The notes under the pieces are model-generated. The model did no database searches. It saw only the letters and a program-made list of their open reading frames with translations, and was not told where the DNA came from. A DNA stretch of 64,000 nucleotides. Source: Calocera cornea HHB12733. Lineage: Eukaryota > Basidiomycota > Dacrymycetes > Dacrymycetales > Dacrymycetaceae. Below are positions 13,529 to 54,387 of this stretch, piece after piece. Position 1 is the stretch's first letter. The number at the start of each line of letters is the position of its first letter. The stretch spans positions 62,001-126,000 of the forward strand of contig KV423996.1 in NCBI GenBank assembly GCA_001632435.1, in the 5' to 3' direction. A program made the position numbers and the translations under genes.

Positions 13529-16133
13529 ATGACGGAATCTGGAGCAACTAACTGTATCAATTGCACGATTCGGTGAGATCAGGTCTAGAGATTTGGCGTT
13601 TATCGCTCACTCCGCGACAGGCGCCTGCCATGCAACAGGAAGCGTCCCACATGCCGCCGGTGTGACGAGGAGCAAGCTGAAGTAGTCGGAAATGCTCCTC
13701 TGTTATTTAGGCTGAGATTGATCACATCGCTACAGTGCTCATATACATGGACTCTTGGACCGGCCGTTTTCCGTCTCTTCCGCCCGGAGCAGAACTTAAA
13801 CAAGAGTATACGGCTGAATATGAAGGAGCATCAATCCGGAAGGGGGGGCTTTGGAAGAATCTACAAGACCACTACCCATGACGGGCAACTGGTTGCTGTG
13901 AAAGTATTGTTCGAAAGTATGTACTTGCCCACGAGGGCGTTGGAAGTAAGGCAAGCCCTTGGGTGCGTCCAGCGGAATCTAATCGAGCACTGCAGCTCAC
14001 TCTGCGCGAGGCGTGGACCTGGTCTCATTTGAATCATCCAAACGTCGTTCCGTTTCTCGGAGTAGCGGATTACAAGGTGATCTGTCCCGGGGCTCTTCCT
14101 CAGCTCAGCTTGGTTTCGCGTTGGATGGCCCACGGCAACATTATGGAGTATACACGTGAGCATCCGTCCGCGGACCGGCTTCCATTGGTCGGTCTTTTAC
14201 CCACAGTAAGGGAACACATACTGACCCTCTTTAGCTGACTGATATTGCTAAGGGGGTGAATTATCTCCACACAGTACCATCCCCTCCCATCATTCATGGT
14301 GACCTGAAGGGGGTATGTTTCGACAAGATACTTCTGGGACCTCAGCAATCTAATGATTGGTCTAGGACAATATTCTGGTTGATCTGCGTGAAGGGAAACC
14401 AGTTGCGTGTCTTACTGACTTCGGACTGGCACGCGTGGTCGAGTCCGTAGACGAAGAGGGGATTTCTACAACGAGTACGGCCGCTATGGGGAACGTCCGG
14501 TGGATGGCTCCTGAACGTATTGACCATCAGAATCATGGAATAGCAAAGCTCATTGATGCGAAGACAACCCAAAGTGATGTATTCGAGATGATGCGAACTT
14601 TTTTCCAGGCGAGTCTCAAGTCTGGGGCACAGGGCGATCATCCTGACCAGCGCGCCGTGTAGATATTGACAGGTGAACCGCCATTTTCTGGGGAACACAA
14701 ATGGGCCGTGTTTGATGCAGTTCGACTGGGCCACAAACCGAAGCGACCGATTTGTGATGGCCTGGATGGGCTGATCGATGACCTTTCGGATCTCATGGAT
14801 GCTGGATGGGCCCAAGAGAGAGCACTTCGGCCGTCGGCGTTGGAAACTGTGGAGGACTTGGATATGCTGACCAAGCTCCGTTCAAAGGTAGGCCGCCCTA
14901 TTTGTGCTGACTAGGATCTCGATCGCTAACAGTAGACAGGGCGATATAGTTGATCTCCCCACCTTTATCAGTTTAAAAGGCTCTCCACGAATGCGAGCCA
15001 GATTCAGCCGGTACTTCGACCGCATTACCAGCATCCACATCGACGCAGCAACGGACGCGTACCAAGGAAGCGTGGCCATTGTTGAGGACGTAAAGCGTGA
15101 ATTCCCAATCCTTCGGTGGAGAGAACTCTACATTCGGACACGTAACCTGCATGAATTGGATGAAGCATTACTCTTGTGTCGTCGGCAAATTGGTCAGCCT
15201 GACATCGCGCTGCACTTGAGAACGTTGTCGCTGCAGTGTCGCCGTGCGTGGTCGTCTGACGAAAGCCTTACATCAATAAAACGAATACAAGACCTCGCTC
15301 CGCAGCTTCGAAAGCTCTCTTTATTCGACGTTCCGTTGCTATGGGAGGGACTATACGTTTGGGACATTGAAGAGCTGGAATTGAGCGCCGTTCGGCAGAA
15401 GGATATGTTCCCATTACCAACGTTGAAGACATGGCATGACATACTGATGGCCTCACCAAGCTTGCGCAAGCTCTCTCTCCAGCATTCGACGCAACGGAGT
15501 CAAGACATAGAGACGATGCACTTGCGGGACTTTAACATGACGCATGATGCCCCTTGGGGTAGCCGGAGAAGCTCCCATACGCAAGCGGTTGACCATCCGC
15601 GCCTTCGAATGCTGCGCTGCGTTAAGGTCGAACAAGATGTCATTTTGGGCATTATGAATTTGGTGGAGCGTGCCGACTTGGAGTGTCTCATCCTGGCACA
15701 TACTAGTGTTCAATCAAACTCGCTCCTCAACCCCGGTTGTGATCCTCTCTGGATTCTGGGTCCTTTCGTCTGGAGGCGATGGCCGAGCCTACGCATGCTC
15801 TCGTTGCGGGGTATCACCTTGACTTCTGAAACGATGCTGCAACTCTTCGCACATCTCCCGGACTTAGAAGCGCTCGACATTTGCGAATACAACAGACATC
15901 ATTCACTGAGAAGCGAGAAGGAAGCGCTACTTCCCAAACTTGCTATCCTTCGTGCTTTGCCTCGAACCATCGACGATATTCAGAGACTCACGGGAAGGTC
16001 ATTTCAAGCGACCGAGTTGACGCGGCTTCGAGAGCTTGATCTACCACAACATGCTCTTCTTATTGCCTACAGCGACCATCTCACGTGGGGAGGAGAGTCA
16101 AAGTGGTACTGGAGTGGGTCACAAGGAGCATGA
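13529..16133 (+). CDS. Zn2Cys6-TKL kinase-LRR fusion protein, copy 1
   Basis: Eight exons: 13529-13572, 13621-13681, 13736-13945, 13996-14187, 14235-14312, 14366-14608, 14663-14887, 14940-16133; 748 aa. Residues 9-36 form a complete binuclear cluster C-x2-C-x6-C-x6-C-x2-C-x6-C (C9, C12, C19, C26, C29, C36). Kinase domain about 60-350: GRGGFGRIY loop, K91 in VAVKV, HGDLKGDN (D192, K194), DFG (D213), TTSTA activation segment and a regular APE (MAPER). All catalytic residues are present. Residues 352-748 are leucine-rich with repeated LRxLxL patterns like agaricomycete F-box/LRR proteins. Intron 6 has a GC donor (14609). DNA binding and kinase activity are inferred from motifs; substrates are unknown. 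The only family member here with a normal APE. Confidence 0.82.
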
Positions 16134-16453
16134 TGAGTGTGGAGGAAGGAGCGGAAGAATCGCGTATGGATCGATATGTATGAGAAGGATGTCAGATACC
16201 GACGTCGCTAGGTGCTTGCGCTGATGGGCCAGGGGAATGTTCTTATCGGAAGTCGTAGGTTTGTGTTTTCGCGATCTGAGCCATGAGATAGCAAAGTGAA
16301 ATGCGACAGTGTCAAACCCCCTTGCGGGCGATGGGTCTCAGATGGGGAAGGCAGACAGACCATGACCTGAGATATTGACAGAATGGAAACACTCCCATGG
16401 AATCGGTACATACGAAGCACACAGCCGAATCGTGGAAATCCCTTCATGACCTT
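16134..16453. other. Spacer after kinase copy 1
   Basis: Intergenic sequence between convergent genes; nothing seen beyond the shared 3' ends of the kinase gene and the MRS2 relic. Confidence 0.4.
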
Positions 16454-16950
16454 CTACCTACAGTATTGCCATGGCATCGGCGATACCAGATGGAAGCTCA
16501 TGGAGCAGGGCTGGTCATGCAGTCCCCAGCAGCGAATCGCGCACTGGATAATAAGAGGGTTGTCTGAGAGGATGCAGCTTGTAGGCGAGATATGTTCTGT
16601 TGTACGGTTGGTGCAAGGCAAGATGTGTATCCGACGTACTGCACTGTTCTGCACCAAGAGTGAACATCGCAAGGGCGGTTGACCAGGCAGGCCAAGCACG
16701 TTTCGAATTGCAATTCTACGTCGTCATCACGGCATATGTCCTTTGCAATCCCATCCTCCGCATCACTCAGACATGTCATCCTCGTATCTGCCGGCTCGCT
16801 GAGCATGTCGTCCAGGGCAGCCTTCTGCTCTTGCGCCTGTCGGAGGTGTTCGGTTTGTGCCCGTTCATAAGTGTAGTACTGCCGGTTGATCTGGGTTGCC
16901 AACCCGGTTAGCGACCGAATTCAATGACACTTGCACCATTCTTCTTCAAG
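16454..16950 (-). pseudogene. Relic of MRS2-type magnesium transporter
   Basis: On the minus strand this stretch encodes a 40-residue block (AALDDMLSEPAD through DDDVELQFETCL) that parallels exon 3 of the intact transporter at 22.2-23.8 kb, followed by the former intron and a block (QQNISRLQAASS, TLLLSS) parallel to its exon 4. The GMN motif, both membrane helices and the N-terminal part are missing. It sits just downstream of, and convergent with, kinase copy 1. The intact gene has the same position relative to kinase copy 2, so this is the decayed partner in a segmental duplication. The limits are approximate. Confidence 0.75.
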
Positions 16951-17500
16951 TAGGTTATTATCAAAGTCAATCAGAATGCACTTTTGAGCATGATGAAGAT
17001 GGTCGCAATTTCTGCCTTGGAGGTCTGGTGGACGCTTAACCGCACACGCGATGCCCGCGCCACTGCGCCTCGCGCTCTGCATCGCTCACCTGCCTGCTCC
17101 CCGCTGCCGTACCCTCCAAGCAACCCTCTCTTTACCGCTCGCCTGCAATGGGAGCTGTGCTGACATGCCGTTGTACCCAGTGTGAAGCAGGAACTCGGGG
17201 ACGTTAGGACCATGTTTGCCGCGACCGATGAGTGTGGTGAAGCTGCTCGACACGCCTGCATCTGTAAATGGGCACCGCGCACGAAGAGCGACAAGAAAGT
17301 AGAGGCCAAGGAGGATCACGTTGCGCTTTAAAACAGCTCAGTACGTCTTTCTTGCTTGATTTCTCTCTTTCTCTTTTTATAACTTGTGTCCTATCTATCA
17401 TACTTTGCCTCTTCTCGCCCTTCCCGCGCGCTCTCCTGCCCGCGCTTTCTTCAACCCACTCCGCCGCCCTCTCAACCACTCCCCGCGCTCTGCCGGTACT
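16951..17500. other. Interval without a supported gene
   Basis: T/C-rich sequence around 17340-17500. No protein, RNA or repeat that I can support. Confidence 0.35.
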
Positions 17501-17509
17501 GCCACATCC

Positions 17510-18790
17510 CTCGCTCATCCTCTGGTGGAAACTCTCGTCTGCTGCTTGGGATGCTAACACCCCTGCAGCGAACCAATGCTCGAAGAAGTCCCGGAACGCG
17601 TGCTTCAGATCGAGGAGTAGGGAGCCGGGTCTCCTAACGCAGGCCGTTCACCTTGGCAAGGACGAGCTTGAGTGCATGCATATTACCAGGACGTCCTTCT
17701 AGGTGTTGAGGAGCTAGGAGCTTGGTGCGTTTTCCAACTGTTGGTTGAGGGTGCCGTACTGATGTGCATATGCGTGGAAACCGTAGGTATCAGGCAAATT
17801 ACCTTCCACCGTCCGTACCCCTCTCCCGCTCCCACACCAGCGAGAGCATCTCCTCCCTTCGACCAAGCGCGCACGGAGTCCCATCAGTTGGACAGGGAGG
17901 CGAGCAATTTGTTGGAGGGGCAGGCGAGCTCGATGAGCAGGGGCAGGCATCGGGGCGAGTGGTGGTAGAGGGACACTAGCGCTGACGGAGGATGGGGGGG
18001 AAGAGGAAGATTCGATGGTCTGCCCCGCGACTGCGAATGGAGCCGGAAGAGGGGGAGGGAACGCAATCGCGGGGAGGGGGCGACGAGGACGAAGACGAGG
18101 ATGACTGACTCCCCCCCCCCCGGCCGCCCCACCCCACTACCACCACCCCGGGGCTGACCGCCAGAACTGCCGAGTCACCACACCTCGCTCGGCAGGCAAG
18201 CTCCAAATCCCCGCGCTCCGGCCCCGGCCTCGCAGGGGCCCGCTTACCCCGGGAGAGGAGCAAGGTCCAGGACGTGTTGGTGCGCGGGGGGGGTGGGGGG
18301 GACGACGAGGAGGGGTCAGATGCTGGGCTCGTGTACTCCGACGACGTGGAGGGCAAGGGGGAGGGCAGTGATATCGATCTGAGACTAGGCATCTGGAATG
18401 GACCTCCAGGGGGCGGGGTGTAGAGGGGCATGCACCCCCACCGAAGCAGGGAGCGCCCCCCTCCTTTCGGCCACCACTGCGCGTGCCGCCCCCCTGGCCC
18501 AAAGGGGGTGAGCAGCTCTCGCGCCCCGCCACCGCCGTCGCCGCCTACGCCACCCCGCAGGAACGGGTGCTATGAGGGGACGCCCGTGCAAAGGAAGAAG
18601 GAGGAGCTGGAGGAGGTTCGGACCCCGTTTGATACTGCTGATGAGAGTGATGCAGAGGCGCTGCTCGGCGGGGCAGGGAAATGGGAGGCCGGATGGACGC
18701 TTTGCGGATCTTGTTTAGGTTCGCCTGGTTCTTTCTGTCAGCAGCCTCTCTCGGTCATTGTAAGATGGGCAACCGGGACTATCCAGCCAT
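17510..18790 (+). pseudogene. Possible degraded coding region, Ser/Pro/Gly-rich, unknown
   Basis: Stretches of protein-like sequence occur on the plus strand in changing frames: a hydrophobic piece with LLVEGAVLMCICVE (about 17735), a PTPARASPPFDQARTE segment (about 17840), a long Arg/Gly-rich part (18000-18400), and RKKEELEEVRTPFDTADESDAEALLGG followed by a hydrophobic FAWFFLSAASLG run near 18710-18760. I do not recognise the family. The frame changes and a 12-base C run near 18111-18122 suggest either unmodelled introns or decay. It could also be chance in GC-rich DNA, although the charged segment at 18590-18680 looks genuinely coding. Confidence 0.3.
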
Positions 18791-19077
18791 AATTATCAGG
18801 CAGGTTTGAGCCGAGATTGGAATAGCTGCAAGCGAGAGGAATAGTGAGGGACATCGGACCGGCACACTCTACGCACAGCTTCGGATCAGGGGGGATGACG
18901 ACTTTCCCGAGGCGCCTCGAAGGTAAGCTATGCACTGCCGCTCAGGTTCGTGCTTCACAGCCTCGGTCGGTCCGGGAATCCGACAACAGACCCTCAAGGG
19001 GGCCAAGACTTCAAAAGCCAAGCGATAGCGCGCAGCCGCATCGTCTCCTAGCTCACGCTTCAGGTTCAGGTTCGACA

Positions 19078-21965
19078 ATGGAGGCCGCTGACCACAATGC
19101 GTGCATCTCATGCGCGGCACGGTAAGCATTCATCAGAGCCCGAGCGCGGCCGTTTACTCTGGGTTCGGTACCCAGCAAGCTCAAATGCAATCGCACTCGC
19201 CCAGTCTGCAATTCGTGTGCTCAGGAGCACCATTCAGTATGTCGTTCAATTGCCGCGCTTATTCATGAACTCACGTAACTCACAGTGCTCCTATGAATGG
19301 ACCATTGGAGAAGGGATCTACAGTCTGTTCCCACCATCTGCCAATCTAAACGACAAAATATCGCTGGAGATGCGATCTTCACAAGATAGCCTGGGTGGCT
19401 TTGCGCGGATTTACCGGACTCCTATGTCGTCTGGTCGACTGGTTGCTGTCAAGGTTTTTTTTGAGAACAAATGGATCCATGAAAGAGACATTGTGGTATG
19501 CCATGCCGGGGCATTGAGCACAGGCCCCTTGTCTGATGACCAGTGTTCCAGCTCTCTCTTCGTGAGGCGTTGATCTGGCAGGATCTGAATCATCCAAATG
19601 TTGTCCCATTTCTGGGAATCGCCAATTATCAAGCAATCTGTGCTGGTGCATTACCCCAGCTCTGTCTTGTTTCACCGTGGATGTCGGCTGGCAACATAAT
19701 GGAGTACATAGCATCCAACCCCGAAGAGAGCCGCTTACCATTCGTACGCCATCCCTGAGGCCTGTCCTCGGCCATTGGACTAGCTAACGGCTCGCAGCTG
19801 TTGGATGTGGTAGATGCCGTATCCTATCTTCACAACCATCCTAAGGGACCTGTCATACACGGGGATTTGAAAGGCGTGAGTGGCACATACTGGGTGACAC
19901 TAACAACACCAAGCTAACCACTGTGCTCTTCAGAATAATATCCTCATCGACTTGGGTGAGAAACGGCTTATTGCTCGTGTCACCGACTTTGGTTTAGCTC
20001 ACATAATGGAATCAACACTGCAAGACGGTATGACTACCACCAGCACGGCCTTCCAAGGCAACTCCAGGTGGATGGCTTTCGAGCGAATGCTTCCCAGCGA
20101 GTATGGGCTGCGACAGGCGGCCGCCAAGTCCAAGGCTAGCGACGTGTTTGAGCTAATGCGCACGTTCTTCCAGGTGCTTAATGTTTCTGCTTACTGCCCA
20201 CACAGGCTGGAGCTACAGTCGCTGACATCTATATCAGATCCTCACAGGGAGATTGCCCTTCCACGGAAAGTCTGACATTGAGGCTATGGTGGCCGTAGTT
20301 CAGCGTCAAAACCCAGAGCGGCCAACAGACCACTGTCGTGATTTGGATGATCTGCGGTGGAACTTGATGTTGCAGGCCTGGTCTGACATTCGGGAAGAGC
20401 GTCCGTCACTTATGGAGGTGCAACACGATATTGCAGAAAGCTTACGCCTCGAGCGACTGCTATTGGTATGTGATATTTGAAGCTATACTGGCTCAGAGTG
20501 AAGCTGATGGTTTCTTGCTCCGTAGGATAACAAGAAGTACGTGGATCTGAAGCTCCTTGTGATGGGTGATATCCCTCGGGAACGACTGGTCTACAAGAAG
20601 GCACTGCTGTCTGCTCTCTCCCTCAAATATCTGCCTGTTCGGGATCATCTTGAAGTCTTGGAGCCATTGATTTCAGGCCTCCACTTGAGATCACTCCGAG
20701 TAGAGGAGCTCGTGCTGGTGTCAGACAACCGTCTCGGTGAAGAGTACAGCGCAAGAAAGCATGAATCAATCTTTAAGGATAAGTCGGGTCTGGAGCAGCT
20801 TGTGCTCGTCCTCTGGCATGCGTGTCAAGAGCTGCAACGTCTGGAAGTTAGCGGTAGACCTGGGCAGCTGCCGTTGCCTATCAATGAGCTGGTCAGCAAA
20901 TATGTTCCCAACATCACCACGCTGTGTATAAAATGGGTCGCATTCGAGTACGATCGACTCTCATTTGAACGGCTGCGAAACCTGGAGATCCGACGCGTCA
21001 CCTGGCGCAATATATCAACCCAGTGGGTTCGTGAATGGGGAGAAGTCTTGCGAAATGTGGTGGAATTGGAACAGCTGGTCATTGAGGACAGCACAACGGA
21101 GGAGGGCCCTTGGAAACAAGCCTATCTGGCTCTTACCGGGATTGAAAGAAATAACACGGCAGACGCCCCTCTCGTTGTACTCGAAGACTTGAAAGTACGA
21201 GCTCCGAAGCTGCGGGCATTGCAACTACACACGGCGACAACGTACATGGCACTGACCTTTATGGCGTTGCTGTCACGTACGAATCTCTCTACCCTGTCTT
21301 TGTGGGTCAAGGTAACCACGGGGGACATGATCCTTACTCAGATTGGCCGCTGCTGGCCTCGCCTGCAGGTTCTGGCATTGAACTTGGAGCTATTCCCAAC
21401 GGAGCAGCCTCGGAGACTCTTCCGCACACTCACACGGCTGAAGGTGCTAGAGTGGAACGAAAACGACATCATCAAACACCTGCTACTAGACCCAGAGCCA
21501 ATAATTCTGCCACGCCTGAAGACGCTCAGGGTACATACGGTTGTCCTGGTCAGGTCGGGCCGCGAACACAATATTCTTGATTTGCTCTCCGCCGACGTTT
21601 GGCAGGAGACTGCGGTAAAGAAGGTACTGTTTGACAAGGCGCACGTGCTGGGGCAATTGAGAAACTGCCGTGTCCAGACGGAAGACCTAGGACAGCTACG
21701 AGTCGGATGGTTCAAGCCCTGCAATGGCTTCCAGGAGCTGAGAGAAGATTTGGAACCGTCTTGGAGAGTTTATTCACAAAGCGAGCTCAAGGAGAAAGCT
21801 TTTGGTTTACGCGGGTGGCAGGACGCAACTTCCACGCTCGGAGAAGATACAGATGACGAGTCGGAAGAGACCCCAAACGATGCTACAGCCGGGCACGAGT
21901 GGGCAAGACGTTCCAGTCTTTGGTCGTCCAGCAGGTCTGTCAGAGACGCTGTTTATTATGGATGA
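19078..21965 (+). CDS. Zn2Cys6-TKL kinase-LRR fusion protein, copy 2
   Basis: Exons 19078-19121, 19176-19236, 19286-19495, 19552-19743, 19798-19875, 19934-20173, 20238-20465, 20526-21965; 830 aa, no lesion seen. The cluster (C9, C12, C19, C26, C29, C36) is the most canonical of the six: CISCAARKLKCNRTRPVC has the basic RKxKC stretch of Gal4-type fingers. Kinase: LGGFARIY loop, VAVKVFF lysine, HGDLKGNN, TDFGLAH, TTSTA, then WMAFERM where a phenylalanine replaces the proline of APE. The C-terminal 480 residues are leucine-rich with LRxLxL units and end in an acidic/serine region (EDTDDESEE). Exons 1-5 have exactly the same lengths as in copy 1. The MRS2-like gene follows it convergently at 274 bases distance. 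Confidence 0.83.
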
Positions 21966-24042: not shown

Positions 24043-24069
24043 CGGCAAAGCCAGCGGCAAAGCCAGCGG
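24043..24069 (+). repeat. Tandem 12-mer repeat
   Basis: CGGCAAAGCCAG occurs twice in direct tandem followed by a partial third unit. Confidence 0.8.
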
Positions 24070-24562: not shown

Positions 24563-26919
24563 TCATGTGGTCGTTTGAAGAAAGGGGCGTTTCGTGTTGT
24601 CTGGTCCGATCGTTGTGGACGACCTGCGCTTGCGCGGTACCATACCTTCTATGCTTCTGATGGTGCGAATTGATTCGAGATCTAACGCGTTCCCCATCAA
24701 CAGGGACGTCGAAAGGAAGAGCGTTTGTGGCGACAGTCGCGGAGTTCCGGGTGGACGGGGTGAAGGCGGAAGAGATGGCCGAGCAAGACTCTGTATTCCG
24801 AACCCTTGTATGCGGAACCCGTCATTCATGAAGTCGGCGGATTGCAAAACTGAAGCTGTCTGTTTCTGAAGAGAGTTGAAATATCTAAGCGATTTGCTGA
24901 AATCCGCCTGTGGGACGCTGCGTGGTGGTGGCCAGGTGACGGTGCGGTCGTTGTCGGCAGCAGGCTCAGGAGGCACGGGAAGCCCTTGAGCAATCGCTTC
25001 CTTGGCAGAGTTAGTGTGCCAGTGGTATGCCTTCAACGTCTTAGTATTTGCGATGGAAGGCGGTGCGCGGACTTTCAAGTTATTGATGTCTTTTCTGGGT
25101 CGGCAAGCTCTCGGGTCCATCCTCACGTAGAGGCGTCCAAACAAGAGATCTGGCTCCTCCGATCGATGGAGGCTCTCTCGAATCAGATTCACGTCTTTTG
25201 ATTGCAATCGCAGGGTGCTCCATCGTTGTTTGGGAATGAAAATTGACACATCCTTCAGAGACCAGGCTTTGAGATCATCTTCGTGTAGCTCGACATCGAC
25301 AAGTGGTGGTGTTGGCAAAGGAAGGCGAAGGATCCTGAGATCGTTCCATCTGCGAGCCAAATTAGAGAGGTCAATTTCCTGTCGCATGTAGGTCCGCAGG
25401 GCCCGATTATGGGGAGTCACTGCTCCCTAGGGAATGTAAGTGAACATCGTTCAAACTCACGTGCCCAACAACTAACCGTTAGGCCTTCCATTACGATCGT
25501 GTACTCCACGATTGTCATGACCGTCTTGCAGTCATACCGCTCCGTTCTTCGAGGGCTCCAACATCGAAGCATCATATGCCACATCAGTTCGTCCAGCGGA
25601 AGGGCGCCGTGACTGGGGCGCTCCGGATTCACTTCCTTGATAATCTTCTGTTGAACTTGCCATTCATTTGAGCCATGATACGGAACTTTTTCCGTCATGA
25701 TCTGATCTAATATCAGCTCTAGACTCTTCATTTAGTTGAACAGCTCACTTGCAGAAATGTCCTCATCATCTCAAACACATCGCTTGCCGCGCTCATGGCT
25801 GCGGCCCCACGTTCAATGTTGTACTGTTGTGGATTCATGCGCTCCCAAGCTAACCATCGAACATTTCCATTGAAGGTAGTGCTCGTAGTGGACATATTAC
25901 TGTCCATCTCGATTGCCATCTTCGACAGTCCAAAGTCACTGAGTTGCGCCTGGAGTGCCCACCCGTTGGTGTTGCCGCGGTTGACCACCACCAAAACATT
26001 ACTCTGTAGTACACCATAAGACCGGGCACGACATGGGTATAGCAGAGAAGGTACCCACCCCTTTCAAGTCCCCATGGAGGATCGGAGTTGGTTTCACACT
26101 GTGGAGATAATCCACCCCTCGGGCGATGTCCAACAGCTAGCCGACTGTTGGGTTGGCACAGGCGCACTCGACAGAAACGGACGGCGGACTCACAAATGGC
26201 AGCTTGACACCTTTATCTCCGCTTGTCTTGAGAAACTCCTCTACATTTCCGAATGGTGCCCAGGGCGAAAACATGCAAAGCTGAGAAGGAGAGCCGGGAC
26301 ATAGGTCCTTGTAGTCGGCAATCCCCCAGAAGGGCAAGATATTCTTGTGTCCCAACTGGGACCACACCCATGCCTCTCGTAGTCCCAGCTGGACATACGT
26401 CAACCGACATCAGTGGAAGACAGATATGACGCACCATTAAGCGTTGCTTAGGGTTCCATTTGTAGTCGTGTAGAACTTTGACCGCGACAGCACCATCGCC
26501 CCATACCTTCGCGCCCAGCTTAGTGAGGCCCACTTTATACACCCGGCCGAAACCGCCCTGTGACGTTTGCCAAGGAGTGCGTATTGACTGTACGCAATCG
26601 GCGATGTCCTCTGTCTGACCCAAGAAGAGTTGATGTATGTGGGGGCCGAGGGTCCATTCGTAGCTGCACTGAGGGCGCGTTCATTAGTCGGATCTCAATA
26701 CAATCACAGTAGGATGATCCAGCACGCACCTCTCGTCCATCTCGAGCACAGAGCGAACACGATGGACGAGAATGGTCACAGGTATACCGCCTAATATCCA
26801 AGTTAGAGGGATAATCTCTTGCGGTACGAGGTTCTAAAGTATGATGCGAACCTGATGCCACACGCTATGCACTGACTGCCATCATCCGGCACCATCAAAA
26901 CCACATCATCCGAGGCCAT
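24563..26919 (-). CDS. Zn2Cys6-TKL kinase fusion, copy 3, with basic tail instead of LRR
   Basis: Exons (minus): 26852-26919, 26730-26790, 26435-26668, 26194-26388, 26059-26136, 25749-26003, 25477-25701, 24563-25426; 659 aa, no lesion. Cluster at C17, C20, C27, C34, C37, C44. Kinase: QGGFGRVY loop, VAVKVLH lysine, HGDLKGSN, SDFGLSK, TTSTT, WLAWERM (tryptophan in place of APE proline). Exon 3 has an 8-codon insertion relative to copies 1 and 2. The final 288 codons are not leucine-rich: they are Pro/Arg/Lys-rich, with RPRKDINN and a terminal PRKRRSS that could be a nuclear import signal. A start at the inner ATG (residue 9) is possible. The last intron could also use the GTGAGT at 25460, but the chosen donor gives a 225-nt exon 7 identical in size to copy 1. 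Confidence 0.8.
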
Positions 26920-37562: not shown

Positions 37563-40387
37563 CTAGGTGGCGTAACTCTCGACCCGCTTCCACGTGGGAC
37601 CGGAGGGCGTATGCCACAATGGCCCAGTCAACGGGTCAGAGATCAACTTTGCGTGTCTCTCTAGACCCTCATGAAGCTTTTTGTGAAGACATTTGTTTTT
37701 TGAGTGATCTGTGACCATCTGTAGCAGCTCCCAGTTCAACCGGACCCGTTGGTTCCAGAATTGTGCCAGGGAGTCACACGTGTGGCCAACAGTGTGCAAC
37801 ACCCGAAGGTTGGGTAGTACAGCACCAGATACCCTGGGCGGCGCGCGACTGGCATGGCTTCTAATCAGCGAAGACAGAGTACCATCGCCGGTGTAGAGAT
37901 ACAGGCTCTTCACTTGAGCCAGTGGGGAAAACAAGTCCAAGCCGCCTAGTGGGCTGGAGCGGTTTCCTCTGAGAAATAATCGTCTCAGATGAGGATAGCG
38001 AGAATCTCTGAGAAGCTGTAGAGGCAACAGATATGACGTTTTCGTTTGAAACGAGTGAAGAGACAATGTTCCAAGCGCGGGGACCTGAAGGGTTGACAAG
38101 AGATATCCGAGCATATGTATCCGCAGACACGGCGCCAATCTGTAGGACTCTGAGTTCCGGGAGCTCAACACAGTATTCGTCCGGCGCTTTGTAGGGAGAG
38201 CATTCTGGATCCAGTCTTGGGCCATAATTAATGATATTTAACGCGCGAAGGTATCGGGTACTGCGGAGAAGGGCTGTCCACTGGGCCATGGTGGGACGAA
38301 GAGCTTCCGGGTGGTATTGCAGGTCAAGACTTTGCAGTAGAGGAAGTGTAGTTGGTACTAATGACAGTGGTAGGTAGTGCAGACATAACCTCTCGAGCTG
38401 TGGCATAGTACCCGCAAAGCGCTGTGGCAAGTGGAGAAGACTCTCTCGCAACCAAGGTTGGACTGGAGGGAGCAACAGGTCGTGCGATGGAGAGGGCGTT
38501 TCACATACAAGCTCCAGAGCCAGCGTTGTCATGAGTGTGGCGCCCTCGTTGCACCTTTTCAAGACCGTGATTAGTGTGTCGAGCTCCTCAGATCGAAGAG
38601 AAAACGTTTTCCAGTGACCCAGGGGAAGGAGCAGGTACAAGTCTAGGAGATCCTCTGGCCACAAAACACGAGGCTCAGAGTTCACATGTTGACTTTTCTT
38701 GGAGACAAGGTCGGAGCAGATGGTGATATGCAGTTCCCCCAGTCGGACTTTGCTAAGGGTAGAAGCGTCCCTGGGAGGACAACTTTGGGCGTGCCCGTTT
38801 GTCCTGTGATGCATTTGTTGAAGACAGCCATTACTCGCTCTGAGAGAGTGATGAAGTTGATGTCTCGCCGTAGTTCCAATGTATTCTGCACAGTCTTTGT
38901 GTCACTTTGTTGTTGCTACAAGATATATCAATGATTACCGTTAAAGGGGCTCACAACTTTTCGCTCACTTGAAGACCCGTGCATAGTCGATAGTATTCCA
39001 ACATGTTCTTCACTTCAGTTGCAGATAGTTGTGCTGTTGGTTGTTCGCTCCAACATAGGCGCATGAGGTTCCAAAGGCCGTCAGGAAGCACAAGATCAGA
39101 GTCCACGAGGCTTCCAGTGGGACGTTCAGGATTTTGGGCAGTGAGTACTTTTCCAATCACTTCGAAGTCACTCAACCCTTGATACGGAGGTGCCTTTGTC
39201 AGTATCTTCAGAGGATTGTCAGCATCGACCACTCCTTCAGAAACCAAAATCATACTTGTAGAAATGTTCGCATCAGCTCAAACATGTCACTGTATATGGT
39301 GAAGGAAAGCGCGGTTTTCGATATTCCATAGTTCCCGGGGGAAACACGTTCCCATGCCATCCAGCGAGGATTCCCTGCAGTGGTTGTTGTTGTCGTGTCA
39401 ACCCTAGACTCTTCCTCAGCCATGCTACGAGATAGTCCAAAATCTACGAGGCATGGGATAGGTCGTGAGTCCGGGTATCTTCCTTTGTACATAAGCACGT
39501 TATTCTGTAAGGACGGTGCTGATTGAGCGTGTGGGAAAGGGCAGTATAACGACACTCTACTTACCGCTTTTAAATCACCATGTATAATGGGCATTGGCTT
39601 GTGCTTGTGAAGATACTCTAACCCTCCGGTTATGTCCCACATCTAACCCGTCCGACTTCCTTGAGGAATAGATCACCTTCTACGTGAAGGACTGAACGTA
39701 CGAGCGTGAGCAACTCTGGCCACTCTAAATGCGAGACTTGAATATAGTCCTCCACATTTCCAAACAACGCCCAAGGTGACACCATGCAGAGCTGAGAAGC
39801 ACCTTTAGCTACTAAATTGGCGTAGTCAGCCAATCCGAGGAAAGCCGCCACGTTTGGATGCTTTAGCTGGGACCACGTCCAGGCCTTGCGGAGACCAAGC
39901 TGAGGGAATTATACATCGAGGTCAGGCGTAGTATGCAACATGGCTGGAGTATTTCACTTACTTGCAGGGCCCGGGCTTGCAAGAAGCGATATTCATGCAT
40001 GACTTTTACTGCCACCTCGGCCTCAGGTTTGATGTACTTCCATCTGACCTTGTACACGCGGCCGTACACCCCTTGCATTGGGTTGTGTGGACTGGTGATG
40101 GCCTCGAGGCTTGAGGAGACGTCCGACCGGCCCCCAAAGAGGCAGAAGATATGAGGACCCATGGTCCAGTCAAAGCTGCACTATACCGAATCAGTAATGA
40201 TGCCTAGGAGCGGATATGGTAACTGCCCACCTCTCGCTGTTCGGCCGTGCAGCACTGGCACGGGTCCTCTCGATCACATATCAGTCGTCTGCACACCAGA
40301 TCATTGGTGTCAGCCCCGCCTATTGGGGAGCAGGATTGCATACCGGATACTGCAGTGGATGCAATCCTGCGGTACGGAAGTTGACAT
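37563..40387 (-). pseudogene. Zn2Cys6-TKL kinase-LRR fusion, copy 4, two compensating frameshifts
   Basis: Exons (minus): 40344-40387, 40231-40288, 39962-40180, 39702-39899, 39565-39642, 39256-39504, 38969-39205, then the last exon from about 38900 to 37563. Cluster C9, C12, C19, C25, C28, C35 (one residue shorter between Cys3 and Cys4). The kinase part is open: GVYGRVY, VAVKVMH, HGDLKANN, VDFGLSR, TTTTT, WMAWERV. The final leucine-rich exon begins in one frame, shifts near 38750-38810 to a second frame that runs about 680 bases of plausible LRR sequence, and near 38120 returns to the first frame, which is then open to the stop at 37563. Both shifts are single-base equivalents. It may be a dying gene or carry two sequence errors; the regions on both sides are clearly LRR-like. 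Confidence 0.7.
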
Positions 40388-45783: not shown

Positions 45784-45816
<33 letters not shown>

Positions 45817-45975: not shown

Positions 45976-46487
45976 GGCCTTTAAGCTTGGAGGTCGGCGA
46001 GGAGCGGCGGGTGTCGTGTGCTTGGATGATGACCGAGGGTGATTGGACTGTGCGCTGACGCGGACTGCGAGGCTGAGGGAACAAGGGACCGCGCAATGCG
46101 CGCCGCGCATGGGGGGAACGTGATTGTCGGAGATAGGAAGAGACGTTCCGGCTCCGGTATTGGCTCCGCGTTTCCGTGATGAGAGTACGGTCTGCAGCTC
46201 CTGGCGCAGGTCTTACACAACGATAACCGCTCTTATAATACTGTACTGGCATTGTTCTCCGGACTGGGCGCCAATATGCTCCGAACGCACCTCGCACCTC
46301 TGGGTTTGATCGATCCGGAGAATGATTTTAAGCGCAGTCTGGCTGTAGTCTCGCCCTGAATCGATTGCATCCGATCTTCCAACTTCTTCTCTTCATCAGA
46401 AGACACATCTTCAGACGTGCGCGCGTCGTTCTACGCGTCAATCAGCTCTCCCTATCCTGCTATCATCCAGCTTCTTGTACTTGGACT
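45976..46487. other. Divergent promoter region
   Basis: About 510 bases between the otubain gene (-) and kinase copy 5 (+). No gene or clear motif seen. Confidence 0.45.
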
Positions 46488-49210
46488 ATGGATGATGATG
46501 TTATAGCATCAGAGGCGCCGCAGTGCCTTTCGTGCTCAGCGAGGTGGAATGCACGTACAGCTTCCCACACTGGACTAGTTGAGCTTACTCGCACTCTTCT
46601 ATACGAAACGGAACTGTGACAGGACTCGACCACGATGCACGGCTTGTCAACTGGACCATGAGCTAGTGAGGTTTCCGAGCTCATACACCTCCCTGCGGCT
46701 GACCTTGTGCTAGTGCTACTATGACTGGAGTATGCCCAATGTGCTCAGGCTCTTCCCAGTGTCTTTCGATAAGACCCATTGGGTGACTCTCAAGGACACG
46801 GATCAATATGTTCATCGAGGCGCATTCGCTCAAGTCTACCGCACGCGTACATGGGACGATACGTTGATCGCCGTCAAGGTGTTCTTTGAAGGAAGACGGC
46901 CATCCCCGAGAGCTCTTGCGCTACGTAGGCGGCAGGGGCAAGATATACGGAATGAGGGCTGACATGGTATTTCAGCTCTCGGCAAGGGGAGCCTTGACAT
47001 GGTACGGCCTGAATCATCCTAACATTGTGCCTCTCTTCGGAGTTGCAGACTATGCCAAGATCCGCGGTGGTGGCTCCCCTCAGCTCTGCACGATTTCGCC
47101 TTGGAGCTCACATGGGGAATATAATGGAATACATCAAAGATCATGCAACCGTCTGGCGCTTGCCATGGGTGAGCACACACCATCTCGTTGGCCAATCTCA
47201 CTAATGAGGCACAGCTGCTCGATATCATTCACGCGCTGGACTACCTTCACTCCCTCCCACATGTCCCAGTTGTACATGGGGATATTAAAGGCGTTAGTCC
47301 CTGCATGACACGCTCCTGGTAGAATAGCTTGTGACGCCTAGGTCTTCAGAACAATATCCTCATTCATGTTGAGAAGGACGGAAAACTAACGGCTCAACTT
47401 ACGGACTTCGGACTTTCACAAATCGATGTCCCGAATCGACATAACATCGCCACTACGAGTACGGCCGGTCTCGGCAATGCAAGGTGGCTGGCCTTCGAAC
47501 GAATGGATCCTATGCGATATGGACTACAACAGTCAAGTGCCAAATCCACACAGAGCGACATATTTGAGATGATGCGCACTGTCTTGGAGGTATTGCCCAT
47601 CTCTCGAGGTGTCAGCTGTGCTAGGATCTCATGACAAATAACCAGATCTTAACAGGCGCACCCCCATTCCACGGGAAGACGGATTTTCAAGTCATTGTTG
47701 AAGTGTCTCAGGCGAAGAATCCGGAGAGGCCTCCTGGTTACTGCGAAGTACTAAATGACTTCCAATGGTCACTCATGTTGGAGTGCTGGTCAGACATTCG
47801 CCAACGAAAGCGTCCATCGCTCCGGCAGGTGGAGTACGGTCTTTGGAACAGCATGGTAAACGAACTGGTATGTTTGGCACCTGCTACTTACGAGTCAAGC
47901 GCATTGAATCAAAGATTCTACAGATGTCCCAGTCACACGGAAATTCGTACCTGAACATGAAGCACCTATTACAGGCTAGCCCCTTCCCCTGGCAGTGGAT
48001 TCTGAATACGACCACGCCCATAACTGCCATAACTGTCCCTTTGTTCGATTCGTCGCGGCCGTGGTTTCAGCAGATGCTCACTTTGCCGCTCCGTCATCTT
48101 ACTGTAACGACCCTTCGGCTTACCGATATCGGACCCGATACGATGGCAGAGCATCTGGAAGATGTTCTGCTCGCAATACCATTGTTGCAATCTCTGGAAC
48201 TTCAAGGTCGCGGTGTTCCTCAGCATTATCCATCCTCCTTGAGACTTGTTCAAGAGCAGGTCCGGAATCTCAACAGCCTGCTTTTGCACGATATTCCGCC
48301 AAGCTTTGTGTCGATCTCATTCTCAATCTCGGACTTACGAGTTCTGGCACTCCAGACGGGTTTCGCAGAGCACTGCGAAGGAAACGTGTGGTCGATACCC
48401 AAGCTGTCCCAGCTCTTATCGCAGCTTCCAGGGCTGGAAGAGCTCTTCATCGACGCCCTTCCCTTAAAAGAACATCATCATCAAGCTGCACCAGCGAGTG
48501 TTACAGACGGCTCAATTGCACGACAACACCAGCTAATGTCTTCGCGGGTGTCGAACCTTAAAGCATATAATCTACGCACCCGGAGCAGTTTTGCAACAGA
48601 AATCGCACTGGTGCAGCTGCTTTGTGAGGCGCCACTCATACATTTCTTCCTCTTGCCGCAGAATTGGGAAGGGCCATCTCTTCTGCCAAGGAAGATTGTG
48701 AAATACTGGCCACAACTGAAGATTCTCGCCATAGAAACGGACTTCCATTACGCGCTTGAGGTATCCATGCTGGAACACTTGACGTCTTTGGAGGTTCTGA
48801 TTCTGGGCCGATATAACTTCTTACGTCAGGTGTTCTCTGCAAGGCACGCCAGTTGCCTGCTTCCAAGACTCAACACCCTGATCATTTGCGATGACTTTCG
48901 TATATATCTCGGCGAGGAGACGATCGCAGATTTTCTAGGAGCCCGTGCCTTGGCTGGTGCTCCATTACGGCGACTACTGGTCTACAACGAGATCTGGACC
49001 TCCTTCTTCAAAGTCGAGCCGGCATCAGCATTCTCACAACTGGACGTGGAGATCGCATGGTTCGACACGTGCCGTGGTTCTGGACGGTCTCTGGATGAAC
49101 ATTGGCCTTGTTTCAGGCCACAATGGGGAGTTGTTCCTCTATCGGAGGTAGAAAGCTTCGACACTCGGGCAAAGCGGCAAGGAAGATCATTCGAAGAGCT
49201 ATTGGAGTAG
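46488..49210 (+). pseudogene. Zn2Cys6-TKL kinase-LRR fusion, copy 5, with splice and frame lesions
   Basis: Exons by homology: 46488-46543, 46605-46665, 46714-46923, 46976-47168, 47215-47292, 47350-47589, 47646-47867, 47924-49210. Cluster C13, C16, C23, C30, C33, C40 is complete when exon 2 has the 61 nt seen in other copies, but the preceding intron then ends in AC (46603-46604) instead of AG. An extra C at 46924 separates the 210-nt exon 3 from its GT donor, and an extra G near 47112 shifts exon 4 before NIMEYIKDH. Kinase motifs are otherwise present (VAVKVFF as AVKVFF, HGDIKGNN, TDFGLSQ, ATTSTAG, WLAFERM), and the 429-codon leucine-rich exon is fully open. Closest relative is copy 6. Confidence 0.7.
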
Positions 49211-49480
49211 ATTGTACAGCCGCACGTGTCTACCCGAGGGCTCAGCCGAGCCCCAGGTGTCGAACCGTACGGAAAATCCGCACAGCCCAGACACTGTTTG
49301 ACCACCGGTTAATAAACATAGTCTTCATTCGAGCATGTCCAAGTCATGCACAGCAGCAACCTGACCGGTATCCAACGTGATCAGGTTTCCTGATTTGCAC
49401 CTGTACTTGCCACTATACTGTCCGTCCCCATGCGGGATCGCCACACACATCTTTTCGCTCCTCCTTCCCTCTACTCCCCC
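49211..49480. other. Convergent spacer
   Basis: Short spacer between kinase copy 5 and the first GNAT-like relic; C/T-rich in the second half. Confidence 0.4.
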
Positions 49481-50060
49481 TCACCCTGAACCACCCCACG
49501 GGTATATCCCATGCATCTCACTCAGCTCCTCACTCATCTCCTCACACACCTTCCTCCCCAGCTGATCGGGCGAACCGTTTCCTGTACCGGAGAATGCCCT
49601 CCTCCCAAGACGGTCGTCAACTGCGTCCTTCCCGCCCGACCCGTCCTTCTCGGCGATATCCTCCAAGTCTTCCACCTCCCTCTCCTCGAGCAGCTCCTTG
49701 AAGATCCCCAGCCCCCTCAGACGGATAAGTACCTGCCAGAACCGCAACGCAGCGGCGCGGATCTAGTAAGCGGGATGTCAAAGCCTGAGGGGTAGGTAAG
49801 TATATGCGAATGGGATCATACAACACAGGCCCACCCTCTCGCCGATGCAGCGCAGCGGAAACAGGCACGCACCAATCAGTGACATACAAGAACGGCACTG
49901 CACAGCTGGCGAGCGCGGCAAATGGGAGAAGCCCGTCCAACGCAGCCGCCGAGGACGGACCACCAGTTCATGATCGTAATCATCGTGCGGGAGAGGCCGA
50001 GCCAAGTGACGGACATATGTGCGAGTGTGTATACTGGTTGTGGATGTTAGCTTGGCTCGA
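49481..50060 (-). pseudogene. GNAT-like membrane protein relic 1
   Basis: Degraded homologue of the intact gene at 54.7-55.9 kb. Minus-strand pieces match its second exon: a block like LYTNPFVIVAWLALSSVMIGLMDWW appears as TWLGLSRTMITIMNWW (about 49960-50015), then after a frame change LASCAVPFLYVTDW (about 49870-49915). The far end, with EEMSEELSEMHG (about 49490-49530), parallels the intact C-terminal RYEEMREMHG. The middle GNAT part is largely gone. Confidence 0.65.
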
Positions 50061-50079
50061 CATCGGCGCGCGCCTCCTT

Positions 50080-50107
50080 CCCCCCCCCCCCCCCCCCCCC
50101 CCCCCCC
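50080..50107 (+). repeat. 28-base poly-C run
   Basis: Uninterrupted C homopolymer between two GNAT-like relics; its length in the assembly may be inaccurate. Confidence 0.9.
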
Positions 50108-50258
50108 GTGGTAGGCCGGGAGGGAGAGCGGCCGGATGAAACAGCACGTACGCGGAGTAACAGCAGACTCCCGCTGCCCGATAACACCAATATCCCACGA
50201 GCCCTTCACTCTCAAACCTGCGCGTCTTGGCTACGAGGTCGTTCTCAGATCTTGGACA

Positions 50259-51010
50259 TCAGCAGAATTGCACCGCTCGCGGAAGGGCTGCGCTAGGGGT
50301 CGGTCGTCTCGCTACGGCTGAGATGATGCTGGGTAGAAGGGCGGAGGGACCAGAGAGGACATTGAAACGGCGCGAGACTAGGAGGGAGCAGCCGTCATTG
50401 TAGTACTGGACCCGGGCGCGGGCGAGTAGTAGGTGGAGATGTCGACTGTGTCTTCTTGCGCGAGGATGCGCCGCGGGAAGTGTTCGAGGTACGTGGGGTA
50501 GAGCCCGCCGACGGTGAGCAAGTGAGCAGGAGAAGGCGCCGCGCCGCCCCCGCCCGCTTGCAGTGGCTCCGGTGCCGGTCAACCGGAGGTCAGGCGAGCC
50601 AGGCGGGCACAAGGCACCGAGGGAGGGAGGTAGACACAAGTGGATAGCGAACGGCAGCGGGACTGCGCAGATGGCGAGCGCCGGGAGGGGCATGAGCCTC
50701 GTCCAGACGGGGCACCAGTCCATGAGGGCTATAATGGCGCTGGACAGGGCGAGGCAGGTGACCATTACGAATGGGTTGATGCGCACTGCGTGCGGGCGTC
50801 AGTGAGTGCTCTACATCGGGCGAGGCACCTCATCCCGAACAGCCCAGCGTGTGCCGGGCCGGTGGGAAGAGGGAGGAGGAAGAGAGGAGGAATAAAGTTG
50901 CGCGTACGCACCGTTTTAGCCGCTACCGGCTGCTCCATGACGCCGCACCCCACTAGCAAGCGGACCTCCTTCAGGTCCTTATGCTCAACCTTGCACGCCT
51001 GCACTATGGA
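50259..51010 (-). pseudogene. GNAT-like membrane protein relic 2
   Basis: A second degraded copy on the same strand. It retains DLKEVRLLVGCGVMEQ (about 50935-50985), matching exon 1 of the intact gene, then INPFVMVTCLALSSAIIALMDWCPV and LMPLPALAICAVPLPFAI (about 50640-50785) matching the two membrane helices, and PRRILAQEDTVDISTYYSPAPGS (about 50400-50480) matching the start of exon 3, after which the frame is lost. The rest of the acetyltransferase region is missing. Confidence 0.7.
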
Positions 51011-51720
51011 GCCGTTCGCATGTCTTGGGCAGCCCTGGGGACTTCACCCTCCCCATGGGGCTGAGGTCGTGGTCGGCTATCTTGCTAGCAAGGCATGTTG
51101 AGTACAGGGCTAGCCAGAGACGAGAATGGAGGGGGATGTCGCATGGTGCGCCGTGGTGTGTTCGAGTGTGGACGACGGACATCGTGCCTGATGGGGAGAC
51201 GATGGTAACGGTGAAGTTTGCGGGAGCACTTCCTGAGGACGCGACGCGTTGGCTGACGCGTCTATGTTTACGCGGTCATCTCAGTCAGAACGGGGGATGA
51301 TCTTCGCTCATCAACCGTTCATTATCATCTACATGTCATCGAAAGGAGAGCCGGTGCACTTGGACACGAGGCGAACTGGCAGAGGAGTCCCGATCAGAGG
51401 GATGAATAACGGTGCTGCTGGGCAGAGATCCGGTATCAGTGTGAGCGCCATTTCCAGTTTTCCATCTCTGTTCGTTGCCGAGAACATAACCCGGCGCGCC
51501 GAACGTCATACATTTGTACCGGCAACTGACTTTTTCCTTTATCAGGACGGCAATCCGGACGAGGTTGTTTCCGGTCGCATGCGCAGCGCATACAGCTAAT
51601 CGAATTGAAATTCTGACGTCTTCTATCTCTGTCGACACGCGTTCCCGGACCCAATCTCCCGTCTTGTAGCACGCATCCACCGACCTCCTGTGGCTTGCAC
51701 TTCATCCACCTACCGCTCTA
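51011..51720. other. Interval upstream of kinase copy 6
   Basis: Contains short open frames only. The last part is the likely promoter of kinase copy 6. No gene supported. Confidence 0.4.
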
Positions 51721-54387
51721 ATGGCTATGGAGGTTACTACTCAGTCTACATCAAGGTGCCTGTCATGTTGGGCAAGGTCGGTTATTTGCATCACACGTCA
51801 CATGAGCACATCTGACCTACACGGCGGCACAGGAAACTGGCGTGCGACGGTATTCAGCCTGTCTGTGGAATTTGCCAGACAGGGGGCGTCCATGTATGCT
51901 CGTCCAGCTGAAGGCAATCCCTATCACTGATGCGCTGCAGTGCACGTATGAGTGGACCCTGCCGAACATATTCCAGAGCTTCCCGGCATCATTCAACTTG
52001 ACTGAGCAGCTCGCTCTCGACCTGACTGCACCGTCGGCGGATGAAGGCGGATTTGCCAGCGTCTTTCGTACCCGCTTAACCAGCGGTGAGCTCGTGGCTG
52101 TCAAGGTCTTTTTCGAGCGCAAGAGGCCTCCGGCGCGTGTGCATGAAGTAAGCTTGCCTGTATACTGAATCTCAGCAGCAACTGATGGCTGTCAGCTCTC
52201 TGCGCGTGAAGCGTTGACTTGGTCTGGCCTGAAACACCCCAATATTGTTCCACTGCTTGGCCTCGCGGACTGGGCTAAAATACGTAACGGTGTATATGCT
52301 CAACTCTGCATGATCTCGCCGTGGATGTCCGGCGGAAACATCATGTATTACATAGAGCAACATCCGGAAGTCCCACGCCTCCCCTGGGTGAGTCGTGCCT
52401 TCGCTCATCTGCTCATCTGCAATGATATAGACTTATTGTATCCAGCTACTTGACATTGTACATGCGGTAACTTATCTTCATTCCTTGCCATCTGGGCCAA
52501 TTGTACATGGAGATCTGAAAGGGGTGAGTAACTCCCCGTCATAAAGCCGCGACAATTCATGACAGCTACGGGGCAGAACAATGTTCTCATCCATGTCGAG
52601 AGGCATTCACGCCCAGTGGCGCGACTCACGGACTTCGGATTATCCCAGATAGTGGAGGTCTCAAGAAAAGAGAACATCGCTACGACTAGCACTGCCGGGA
52701 GCGGTAATGCAAGATGGTTGGCGTTTGAACGACTCAATCCTACCCGATATGGACTACGGCAGTCCAACTCCAAGTCCACACAGAGTGACGTTTTCGAAAT
52801 GGCACGTACGTTCTTCGAGGTACAGCATGCTTTGAAGAGCCGTTCCAGTAGCTCAACGGCGGGAACAGATCTTGACCGGCTGCCCGCCTTTCAAGGGCAA
52901 ATCGGATTATGAAGTCATCGCAGAAGTGTTTCATGGTGCAAGAAATCCGGAGAGACCGACGGGTAACCACAAGGACCTAGATGATGAGCGGTGGACCCTT
53001 TTGTTGGACGCATGGTCGGATGTCCAACAGGCGAGGCGACCCACTCTGGAGCAGCTGGAGCATGATGTTCAGCAGAGCATACATCTTCAAGAGGAACTCG
53101 TACGTTTGTAATGTCTTACAAGAAAGCGCCAACTAAGACAAAATACAGGAATTTCGATTTGTACGGCCACTCCTCGACATCAAGAGATTGTGCATGGCTA
53201 GAATGTCCACGGCGAGGCTATGGAGGGAGAGAGCGCGCATAGCTGGCGTCAGAATTTCCCCTCTCAGCACCCCACAGTCATGGGTTCAATACATGGAAAC
53301 ATTGCAGCTCAAAGAGTTTGGGATGAAGATCCTTTGTCTCACTGGCATCTCCCCACATACAACCAGGGAACAGTTCGAAGCACAACTCGAAGTCGGTCTG
53401 CTTGCAACACCCGCGCTTCAATGTTTGCAGCTGGAAGGCAACTATAAGGAGCCCCGTATCTGCAATCTCGTCTTCCTTGAGATCCTTCGGAAGCGGCTTC
53501 CCAACCTGGATGAACTTCACCTGGGATTTGTTCCTAGAGTGTTGGACGGCCTTTCACCCTGGGGTTTGCGCTGTCTGGTGCTCCGCGCGTGTATCCACGG
53601 CGACCCTCGTGATCCAGAAACCCTTACATTATCGAAGATCTGCGAGCTTCTAAACAAGCTACCTGTGCTGGAACATCTCTCCATCGATGATGTGCTGTCT
53701 TCTCCCCACGAGTCTGGGCTACTGGACTCCAGTGAAACTGAAGAAGGCACATGGCTGGATGATCAACCAGTTTCATCCAGTCCGCAACTCTCCAACCTCA
53801 AGGTGTTTCATCTGAAGACAGCCTGCTCCGCCACGGCACAATCTTTAATGGCGTTTCTCTCTGCTGCCCCTCTTACACAGTTCTCCTTCTCTACGGATTT
53901 CAGGAAAGGGGTGGTTCTCAACTCTGGAACATTGAGCCATTGGCCACGACTAAAGGTGTTGACACTGTACTGCTGGGGTTCTTGTCCTTTTGCAACCGAA
54001 GGCTTCATTCTGGGCGCGCTCGTGGACCTGGAGATTCTCAGCATCGACTGCATCACTTTTAAGGAGCAAGTGAACTTCGCAGGCGGGGCAAACAAGCTCC
54101 TCCCGAGTCTCAAGACCTTGATGCTCCATCGCGTGATGCGCAGTCCTGCAGTCGCTAGAACAATTGTTGCGTTCATACGAGAGCGCGCTGCTGCCGATGC
54201 TCCACTGCGCCGACTGCTGATTGTGAGGCATTCCTGGAGGGGCTTCTTCAAGGAAGAGCCAAGCTTCGAAGGCTTGTCTCTTGAAATCGGATGGTTTGAT
54301 CATGAATGGAGCCTCATGGTGGACTCTTTGCAAGCAAGATGGGGCGTTGTTCCCAACGAGGAAATACAAGACTTCGATCCTGACTTG
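51721..54387 (+). CDS. Zn2Cys6-TKL kinase-LRR fusion protein, copy 6 (3' end in gap)
   Basis: Exons 51721-51776, 51833-51893, 51941-52147, 52196-52387, 52446-52523, 52577-52819, 52869-53099, 53149 to the gap at 54388. Cluster C13, C16, C23, C30, C33, C40; CLSCWARKLACDGIQPVC matches the Gal4-type consensus very well, including the ARK and CDG-x-x-P-x-C elements. Kinase: EGGFASVF, VAVKVFF, HGDLKGNN, TDFGLSQ, TTSTAG, WLAFERL. The leucine-rich part is open for 413 codons and ends at IQDFDPDL; copy 5 at the same point has only about 15 residues left, so little is missing. No lesion seen in the available part. A start at residue 3 (second ATG) is possible. Confidence 0.82.

Follow-up and report, generated by a model that had tools for sequence, protein, structure and literature searches.

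A zinc cluster precedes the kinase at six loci

We analysed a 64,000-nucleotide (nt) stretch of the genome of Calocera cornea HHB12733 (GenBank assembly GCA_001632435.1, contig KV423996.1, positions 62,001 to 126,000; hereafter the window), a fungus of the class Dacrymycetes and not of the Agaricomycetes, the setting assumed in a first-pass annotation of this DNA. That annotation had proposed six genes, called A to F here, in which a Gal4-type Zn2Cys6 cluster is fused to a tyrosine kinase-like (TKL) kinase and a leucine-rich-repeat (LRR) region. Three-frame translation and spliced models of five of the loci confirm that the motif C-x2-C-x6-C-x5/6-C-x2-C-x6-C is encoded at all six places and is followed by a TKL-type kinase. 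The six cysteines are spread across three short exons: exon 1 reads M...C-x2-C-x-x-R, exon 2 reads C-x5/6-C-x2-C-x6, and exon 3 opens with the codon of the sixth cysteine, then runs through [STY]-[YF]-x-W, also read at all six loci as proposed, into the kinase. The clusters are CINCTIRRLPCNRKRPTCRRCDEEQAEC-SYTW in gene A, CISCAARKLKCNRTRPVCNSCAQEHHSC-SYEW in gene B, CIACGIRRYTCDHSRPSCSLCARDGREC-SYEW in gene C, CIHCSIRRLICDREDPCQCCTAEQREC-SFDW in gene D and CLSCWARKLACDGIQPVCGICQTGGVHC-TYEW in gene F, and gene E has six Cys codons followed by YYDW. The genes lie as follows.

Gene A, 13529..16133, + strand: eight exons, 748 amino acids (aa); Zn2Cys6 at residues 9-36, kinase at about 67-342, LRR-type region. 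Exons 13529-13572, 13621-13681, 13736-13945, 13996-14187, 14235-14312, 14366-14608, 14663-14887, 14940-16133.
Gene B, 19078..21965, + strand: eight exons, 830 aa; Zn2Cys6, kinase, LRR-type region. Exons 19078-19121, 19176-19236, 19286-19495, 19552-19743, 19798-19875, 19934-20173, 20238-20465, 20526-21965.
Gene C, 24563..26919, - strand: eight exons, 659 aa; Zn2Cys6, kinase and a short C-terminal region in which Pfam finds no LRR. Cluster encoded by 26852-26919, 26730-26790 and the first codon of 26435-26668.
Gene D, 37563..40387, - strand: Zn2Cys6 exons 40344-40387 and 40231-40288; kinase exons to 38969.
Gene E, 46488..49210, + strand: damaged; exon 1 at 46488-46543; LRR-type frame 47759-49210.
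Gene F, 51721..54387, + strand: eight exons; Zn2Cys6, kinase, LRR-type region; end behind a gap of Ns. Exons 51721-51776, 51833-51893, 51941-52147, 52196-52387, 52446-52523, 52577-52819, 52869-53099, 53149 to the gap.

The exon/intron layout is identical in the five modelled genes (A, B, C, D and F), with introns of 46-64 nt that are all GT-AG, the sole exception being one GC-AG intron in gene A. Exons 1-7 of gene A were also found by a spliced-profile aligner whose profile includes gene A itself. In genes A, B and C all eight exons are open. Gene F is open up to a 100-nt run of Ns (54388-54487) that masks its end, and position 54387, the end first stated for the six-gene region, is where this run begins. 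In gene D the zinc and kinase exons are open and the last exon closes early; its LRR-like frames (38901-37861 and 38237-37563) lie in other phases without an in-frame join, and these phase breaks could be either frameshifts or unmodelled introns. Intron 1 of gene E ends in AC, without an AG acceptor, and the aligner requires two frameshifts in its kinase exons; gene E was omitted from the five-protein alignment and from the Pfam scan.

The five modelled proteins agree without exception in the six cysteines, in one Arg ahead of Cys3 and in the Pro ahead of Cys4. Against a curated cut-off of 21 bits for Zn_clus (PF00172), genes A, B and F score above (26.0, 25.2 and 24.5 bits), and C and D below (20.8 and 14.5 bits). 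All five scanned proteins carry a kinase match (PF07714 at 105, 87.5 and 97.9 bits in A, C and D; PF00069 at 92.5 and 94.3 bits in B and F; E-values 4e-20 to 5e-30), which begins about 30 residues past Cys6. The kinase motifs VAVKV, HGD[LI]KxxN and DFG are as previously listed, except that gene E has IAVKV (together with HGDIKxxN).

The cysteines are conserved across a larger family

Only the five window models went into the profile with which the aligner was run on 30 regions, most of them picked by searching the whole genome at the protein level. This gave 23 family loci, 15 on contig C83 (six of these in the window) and four each on contigs C158 and C164; a 24th locus, C83:10649-11795, is degraded and is not among the 23. 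The family thus comprises at least 24 loci, spread over three contigs, and contig C41 holds a divergent relative. A clean set of six is rejected, gene E being damaged and the LRR of gene D out of frame. All six cysteines were recovered at 21 of the 23 loci by the window-only profile, while one locus has five and gene E has four. At the five-cysteine locus, C83:12209, all six can be read by hand, with wider spacings. Five of the 23 loci had supplied the profile; among the 17 loci outside the window, which form the independent part of the test, 16 have all six cysteines. When the 800 nt upstream were shuffled, none of 276 runs reached five cysteines and eight reached four, which rejects a chance motif.

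The same kind of upstream scan found no cluster in any of nine other TKL kinases of this genome; four of them at first had only 103-515 nt upstream, and rescanning with at least 767 nt again gave no cluster. The divergent C41 kinase has six cysteines with one frameshift in the alignment and was counted apart. A candidate second locus, on contig C53, matched the codons of Cys6-Ser-Tyr-Glu-Trp and was rejected, as it has no adjoining kinase. A six-frame PF00172 search of the genome listed 24 matches, none of them on the three family contigs. Since six-frame domain searches miss this family, similar fusions may hide in other intron-rich fungal genomes. As a separate observation, five Zn2Cys6 matches lie within 8 kb on another contig (C187:12329-20119, - strand), each apparently interrupted, as judged by eye, by an intron close to the second Cys or at it; no PF07714 match to that contig was among those listed.

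Public gene models join the cluster to the kinase

Two public models, P0001 of C. cornea (matching locus C164_18661) and P0002 of C. viscosa (735 aa), hold the cluster, the kinase and a C-terminal region in one protein and are annotated merely as "kinase-like protein". Their Zn_clus scores are 27.2 bits for P0002 and 16.7 bits, under the cut-off, for P0001. A metagenomic entry, P0005, also scores over the cut-off, and the database entries of P0002 and P0005 both carry precomputed PF00172 and PF07714 domains. P0005 encodes the cluster, the kinase and two SH3 domains in a single uninterrupted frame of 491 aa on a 1,773-nt contig, and for this reason probably derives from a transcript. In three further family models of C. 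viscosa (P0121, P0123 and P0003) the first exons are missing, as would happen when short exons are overlooked. Among the proteins listed by our protein searches (120 of 292, 26 and 7), P0002 and P0005 alone combine PF00172 with a kinase among the precomputed domains listed; each search scored only about 8,000 candidates and such domains overlook some members (P0001), so that this does not imply absence outside the Dacrymycetes.

In a kinase tree of 45 rows, computed by a quick method with the zinc columns excluded, the 23 loci group with P0002, P0005, P0121 and P0123 in one clade with a Shimodaira-Hasegawa-like approximate likelihood-ratio (SH-aLRT) support of 96. The C41 kinase is sister to this clade (support 91), and nine zinc-less kinases of the same genome, seven from other fungi and one from a metagenome fall outside it. 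The zinc-kinase family therefore appears, from this tree, to have a single origin. Gene F pairs with C164_12925 (99), gene E with C164_18661 (99) and gene C with C164_29871 (89), and P0005 stands next to the last pair (95). These pairings between the window and C164 may reflect the duplication of a cluster segment.

The catalytic residues are intact in four window genes

The catalytic Lys, the alpha-C Glu, the HxD Asp, the Asn and the DFG motif are all kept in A, B, C and F; the alpha-C Glu is replaced by Lys in D and by Gly in E. The AlphaFold model of P0002 (mean predicted local distance difference test score, pLDDT, 79.9) matches tyrosine kinases and TKL kinases, and only kinases occur among the matches listed. 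Pkinase_fungal (PF17667, FunK1) stayed under its 24.1-bit cut-off in the proteins scanned, with matches at all only in D (14.5 bits) and P0002 (17.2 bits). At three divergent loci (C83:12209, 14255 and 19625) the catalytic Asp is changed to Gly or Ala (HGG/HGA) and the cysteines are kept, which would make them possible zinc-cluster pseudokinases; C83:14255 has an apparent frameshift as well.

The C-terminal partner varies

At 12 of the 23 loci a long open frame of 411-545 codons occupies the usual last-exon position behind the kinase, and the last frames of A, B and F align with the C-terminal regions of P0001 and P0002. This region is less conserved than the core. Pfam LRR families gave only sub-cut-off matches in A, P0001 and P0003 and no match in the other scanned proteins. 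For P0003, an AlphaFold model with a mean pLDDT of 61.5, and so of modest confidence, matches the LRRs of TIR1, ribonuclease inhibitor, D3, COI1 and nucleotide-binding LRR receptors (NLRs), with a best value of 1.2e-6, a fold comparison made on this relative; the C-terminal region of P0002 is modelled as an alpha/beta repeat.

Among relatives the partner is of the LRR type, LRR type with an EH domain, a pair of SH3 domains (P0005), or another region without a Pfam LRR match. The EH domain (PF12763, 50.1 bits) ends the last frame of the gene at C83:29937 to about 32870 (+ strand). P0123 and its orthologue at C158:34747 share the different region without an LRR match, and the family members at C158:34747, 41894 and 56120 lack the usual long final frame. 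The LRR-type part of the proposed fusion is present in A, B and F, but it is not fixed in the family, and in D it lies out of frame.

Pfam gave no match to the transcription-factor domain Fungal_trans (PF04082) in A, B and C, in F as far as the gap, or in the zinc-kinase part of D. Outside the window, at C83:33179-35934 (+ strand), the kinase is directly followed by a frame of 450 codons that has a Fungal_trans match (35.6 bits, cut-off 23) and is 58-60% identical to P0143 and P0142, both transcription factors. This frame has a nonsynonymous divergence (dN) of 0.38 and a synonymous divergence (dS) of 2.7, the latter near saturation, and looks to be under constraint. A transcription-factor domain is perhaps the partner behind this kinase. 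A working three-part fusion is unproven because the kinase has lost its alpha-C Glu and an in-frame stop closely precedes the conserved splice donor.

The cluster resembles DNA-binding zinc clusters

A profile of 17 clusters (15 of the 24 loci of this genome and two database proteins) matched 17 sequences of the Protein Data Bank (PDB), every one of them a Zn2Cys6 protein. The best match was HAP1/CYP1 (4.2e-6), and the others include Cep3 (also as CBF3 subunit B), GAL4, PPR1, RSC3, RSC30, LAC9 and PUT3; we take these proteins to bind DNA or to sit on chromatin. The position of Gal4 Lys17 holds Arg in 18 of 19 family clusters and that of Lys18 holds Arg or Lys in 16 of 19, both presumably DNA-contact positions in Gal4. 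Codons and divergence were analysed at 18 loci without frameshift events, 17 of which matched, and both TGC and TGT occur in each of the six Cys columns at these 17 loci, as expected under selection for cysteine.

Other features of the window

Just past the N gap lies a 497-nt inverted repeat (54652-55148 and 61728-62224, 96% complementary, 6.6 kb apart), which covers parts of two similar open frames. Three further frames were named by domain matches.

4579-5064, + strand: start of a flavodoxin domain.
56646-57569, + strand: Rpb3/RpoA-like insert domain, 31.6 bits, under its cut-off of 33.9.
63378-63971, - strand: frame with a replication protein A OB domain.

Relation to known proteins

Zn2Cys6 clusters are normally the domains with which fungal gene switches grip DNA. 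The family shares with the transcription factors of this type (Gal4/HAP1), whose domain allows C-x2-C-x6-C-x5..12-C-x2-C-x6..9-C, the Cys spacing, the Arg and mostly Arg/Lys before Cys3, the Pro before Cys4 (16 of 17) and C-x-Y after Cys6 (16 of 17). It differs from them in the kinase that follows the cluster, in fewer basic residues and in the lack of a Fungal_trans match in the window proteins. P0001 and P0002 have the same order as the window genes: zinc cluster, kinase, C-terminal region.

Large lineage-specific kinase sets are described in basidiomycetes (PMC2838846; PMC3937382), and the window genes resemble the TKL expansions of mushrooms, namely the Laccaria set (PMC2838846) and FslK (PMC3937382), in the PF07714-type kinase, HGDLKxxN and DFG. 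The word "zinc" is absent from the main text of both papers. FslK is reported from Agaricomycetes and chytrids (PMC3937382). Across 30 fungi and 2,976 kinases, the kinome survey records a single Fungal_trans domain (PMC2838846), a kinase and a transcription-factor domain in one predicted protein; it is one rare, unnamed case, and the survey section on it does not mention Zn_clus.

Searches of an open-licence literature library gave no published description of a zinc-cluster TKL fusion, a combination that the first-pass annotation did not know as a described family, but it is not unseen: P0002 and P0005 already carry both domains in public databases. Both parts belong to known families, and their combination sits in those databases without a name of its own.

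Interpretation

On sequence evidence, the loci are tandemly expanded TKL-type kinase genes of a Dacrymycete (Calocera) with a predicted N-terminal Zn2Cys6 cluster and a variable, mostly LRR-type C terminus. The spliced models and the tree establish, at the level of predicted proteins, the Zn2Cys6-kinase fusion, the conservation of its six cysteines, the grouping of its members in one clade and the intact catalytic residues of A, B, C and F. What the proteins would do is inferred: that they bind zinc and DNA, lie in the nucleus, are active as kinases and have a substrate. We assign a probability of roughly 0.5 to the reading that the family consists of DNA- or chromatin-tethered signalling kinases. 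The cluster would hold the kinase on DNA or on proteins of the chromatin, the C-terminal module would sense a signal or recruit a partner, and the kinase would phosphorylate proteins at the tether site, a link from signal to gene within one polypeptide. More tentatively, the family might form a class of sequence-specific DNA-tethered kinases, in which the cluster reads promoter sites, the LRR or SH3 modules sense and the transcription machinery is phosphorylated in place; at least one relative may, in addition, have gained a transcription-factor regulatory domain within this polypeptide.

Several observations weigh against tethering. Some of them would suit the main rival reading, less likely in our estimate, in which the cluster is real and has lost DNA binding; stabilised by zinc, it would then be a structural, protein-binding or autoregulatory part of a cytoplasmic signalling kinase. 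We compared the 19 family clusters (four of the 23 loci gave no plain match) with the eight clusters of unbroken motif among 21 scanned PF00172 loci of the same genome. The mean net charge is +2.5 in the family versus +4.4 in these transcription factors, the segment between Cys2 and Cys3 mostly has 2-3 basic residues versus 3-5, and the position of Gal4 Lys18 is Lys in eight of eight transcription factors and Arg in most family members. The first 40 codons evolve faster (dN) than the kinase in five of six paralogue pairs (0.47 versus 0.12 in the pair F/C164_12925, for instance) and slower in one, dS being saturated in one or both regions in five of the six. There is no obvious linker past the cluster, only the roughly 30 residues that precede the kinase match, and the SH3, EH and LRR modules found as partners in relatives are common in cytoplasmic adaptors. 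A simple basic-motif scan left A, B and D without a site and gave a single site each in C and F, that of F within the unreliable tail past the N gap. In the AlphaFold model of P0002 residues 1-40 have a pLDDT of 38-57 and the cluster is not confirmed. Loss of DNA binding is, however, at odds with the Arg and Arg/Lys mostly retained at the positions of Gal4 Lys17 and Lys18 and with the DNA- or chromatin-bound nature of the proteins matched in the PDB.

Apparently broken copies (D, E, C83:10649, C83:14255, C83:17805, C83:42655 and C164:29871) also count against tethering and bear on another explanation, unlikely in our estimate, in which the genes form a repertoire for nonself recognition or stress reception similar to fungal NLRs, with birth and death of tandem copies, swappable C-terminal modules and the zinc-kinase part as the shared output. 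The 24 loci in three clusters, the less conserved and exchangeable C-terminal regions and the resemblance of the P0003 model to TIR1, ribonuclease inhibitor and NLR repeats are in line with it, but the proteins scanned contain no NACHT or NB-ARC match, and such a repertoire would be compatible with DNA tethering and not exclusive of it. Finally, exons 1 and 2 might be part of a different transcript, or of no gene at all; exon 1 measures merely 44-68 nt and exon 2 58-61 nt, and the window models were spliced by hand. In sharp contrast, the cysteines stand in register at nearly all loci and in no shuffled control, public models of two species join these exons to the kinase, and P0005 reads through them in a single frame, which leaves a splicing artefact close to refuted and very improbable.

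As a rule, a kinase acts on genes by way of a cascade or of cofactors. If the family indeed consists of DNA-tethered kinases, it would need neither a cascade nor a separate transcription factor and would provide a direct route from signal to gene in one polypeptide, one that seems to have arisen a single time before expanding within a single fungal class.

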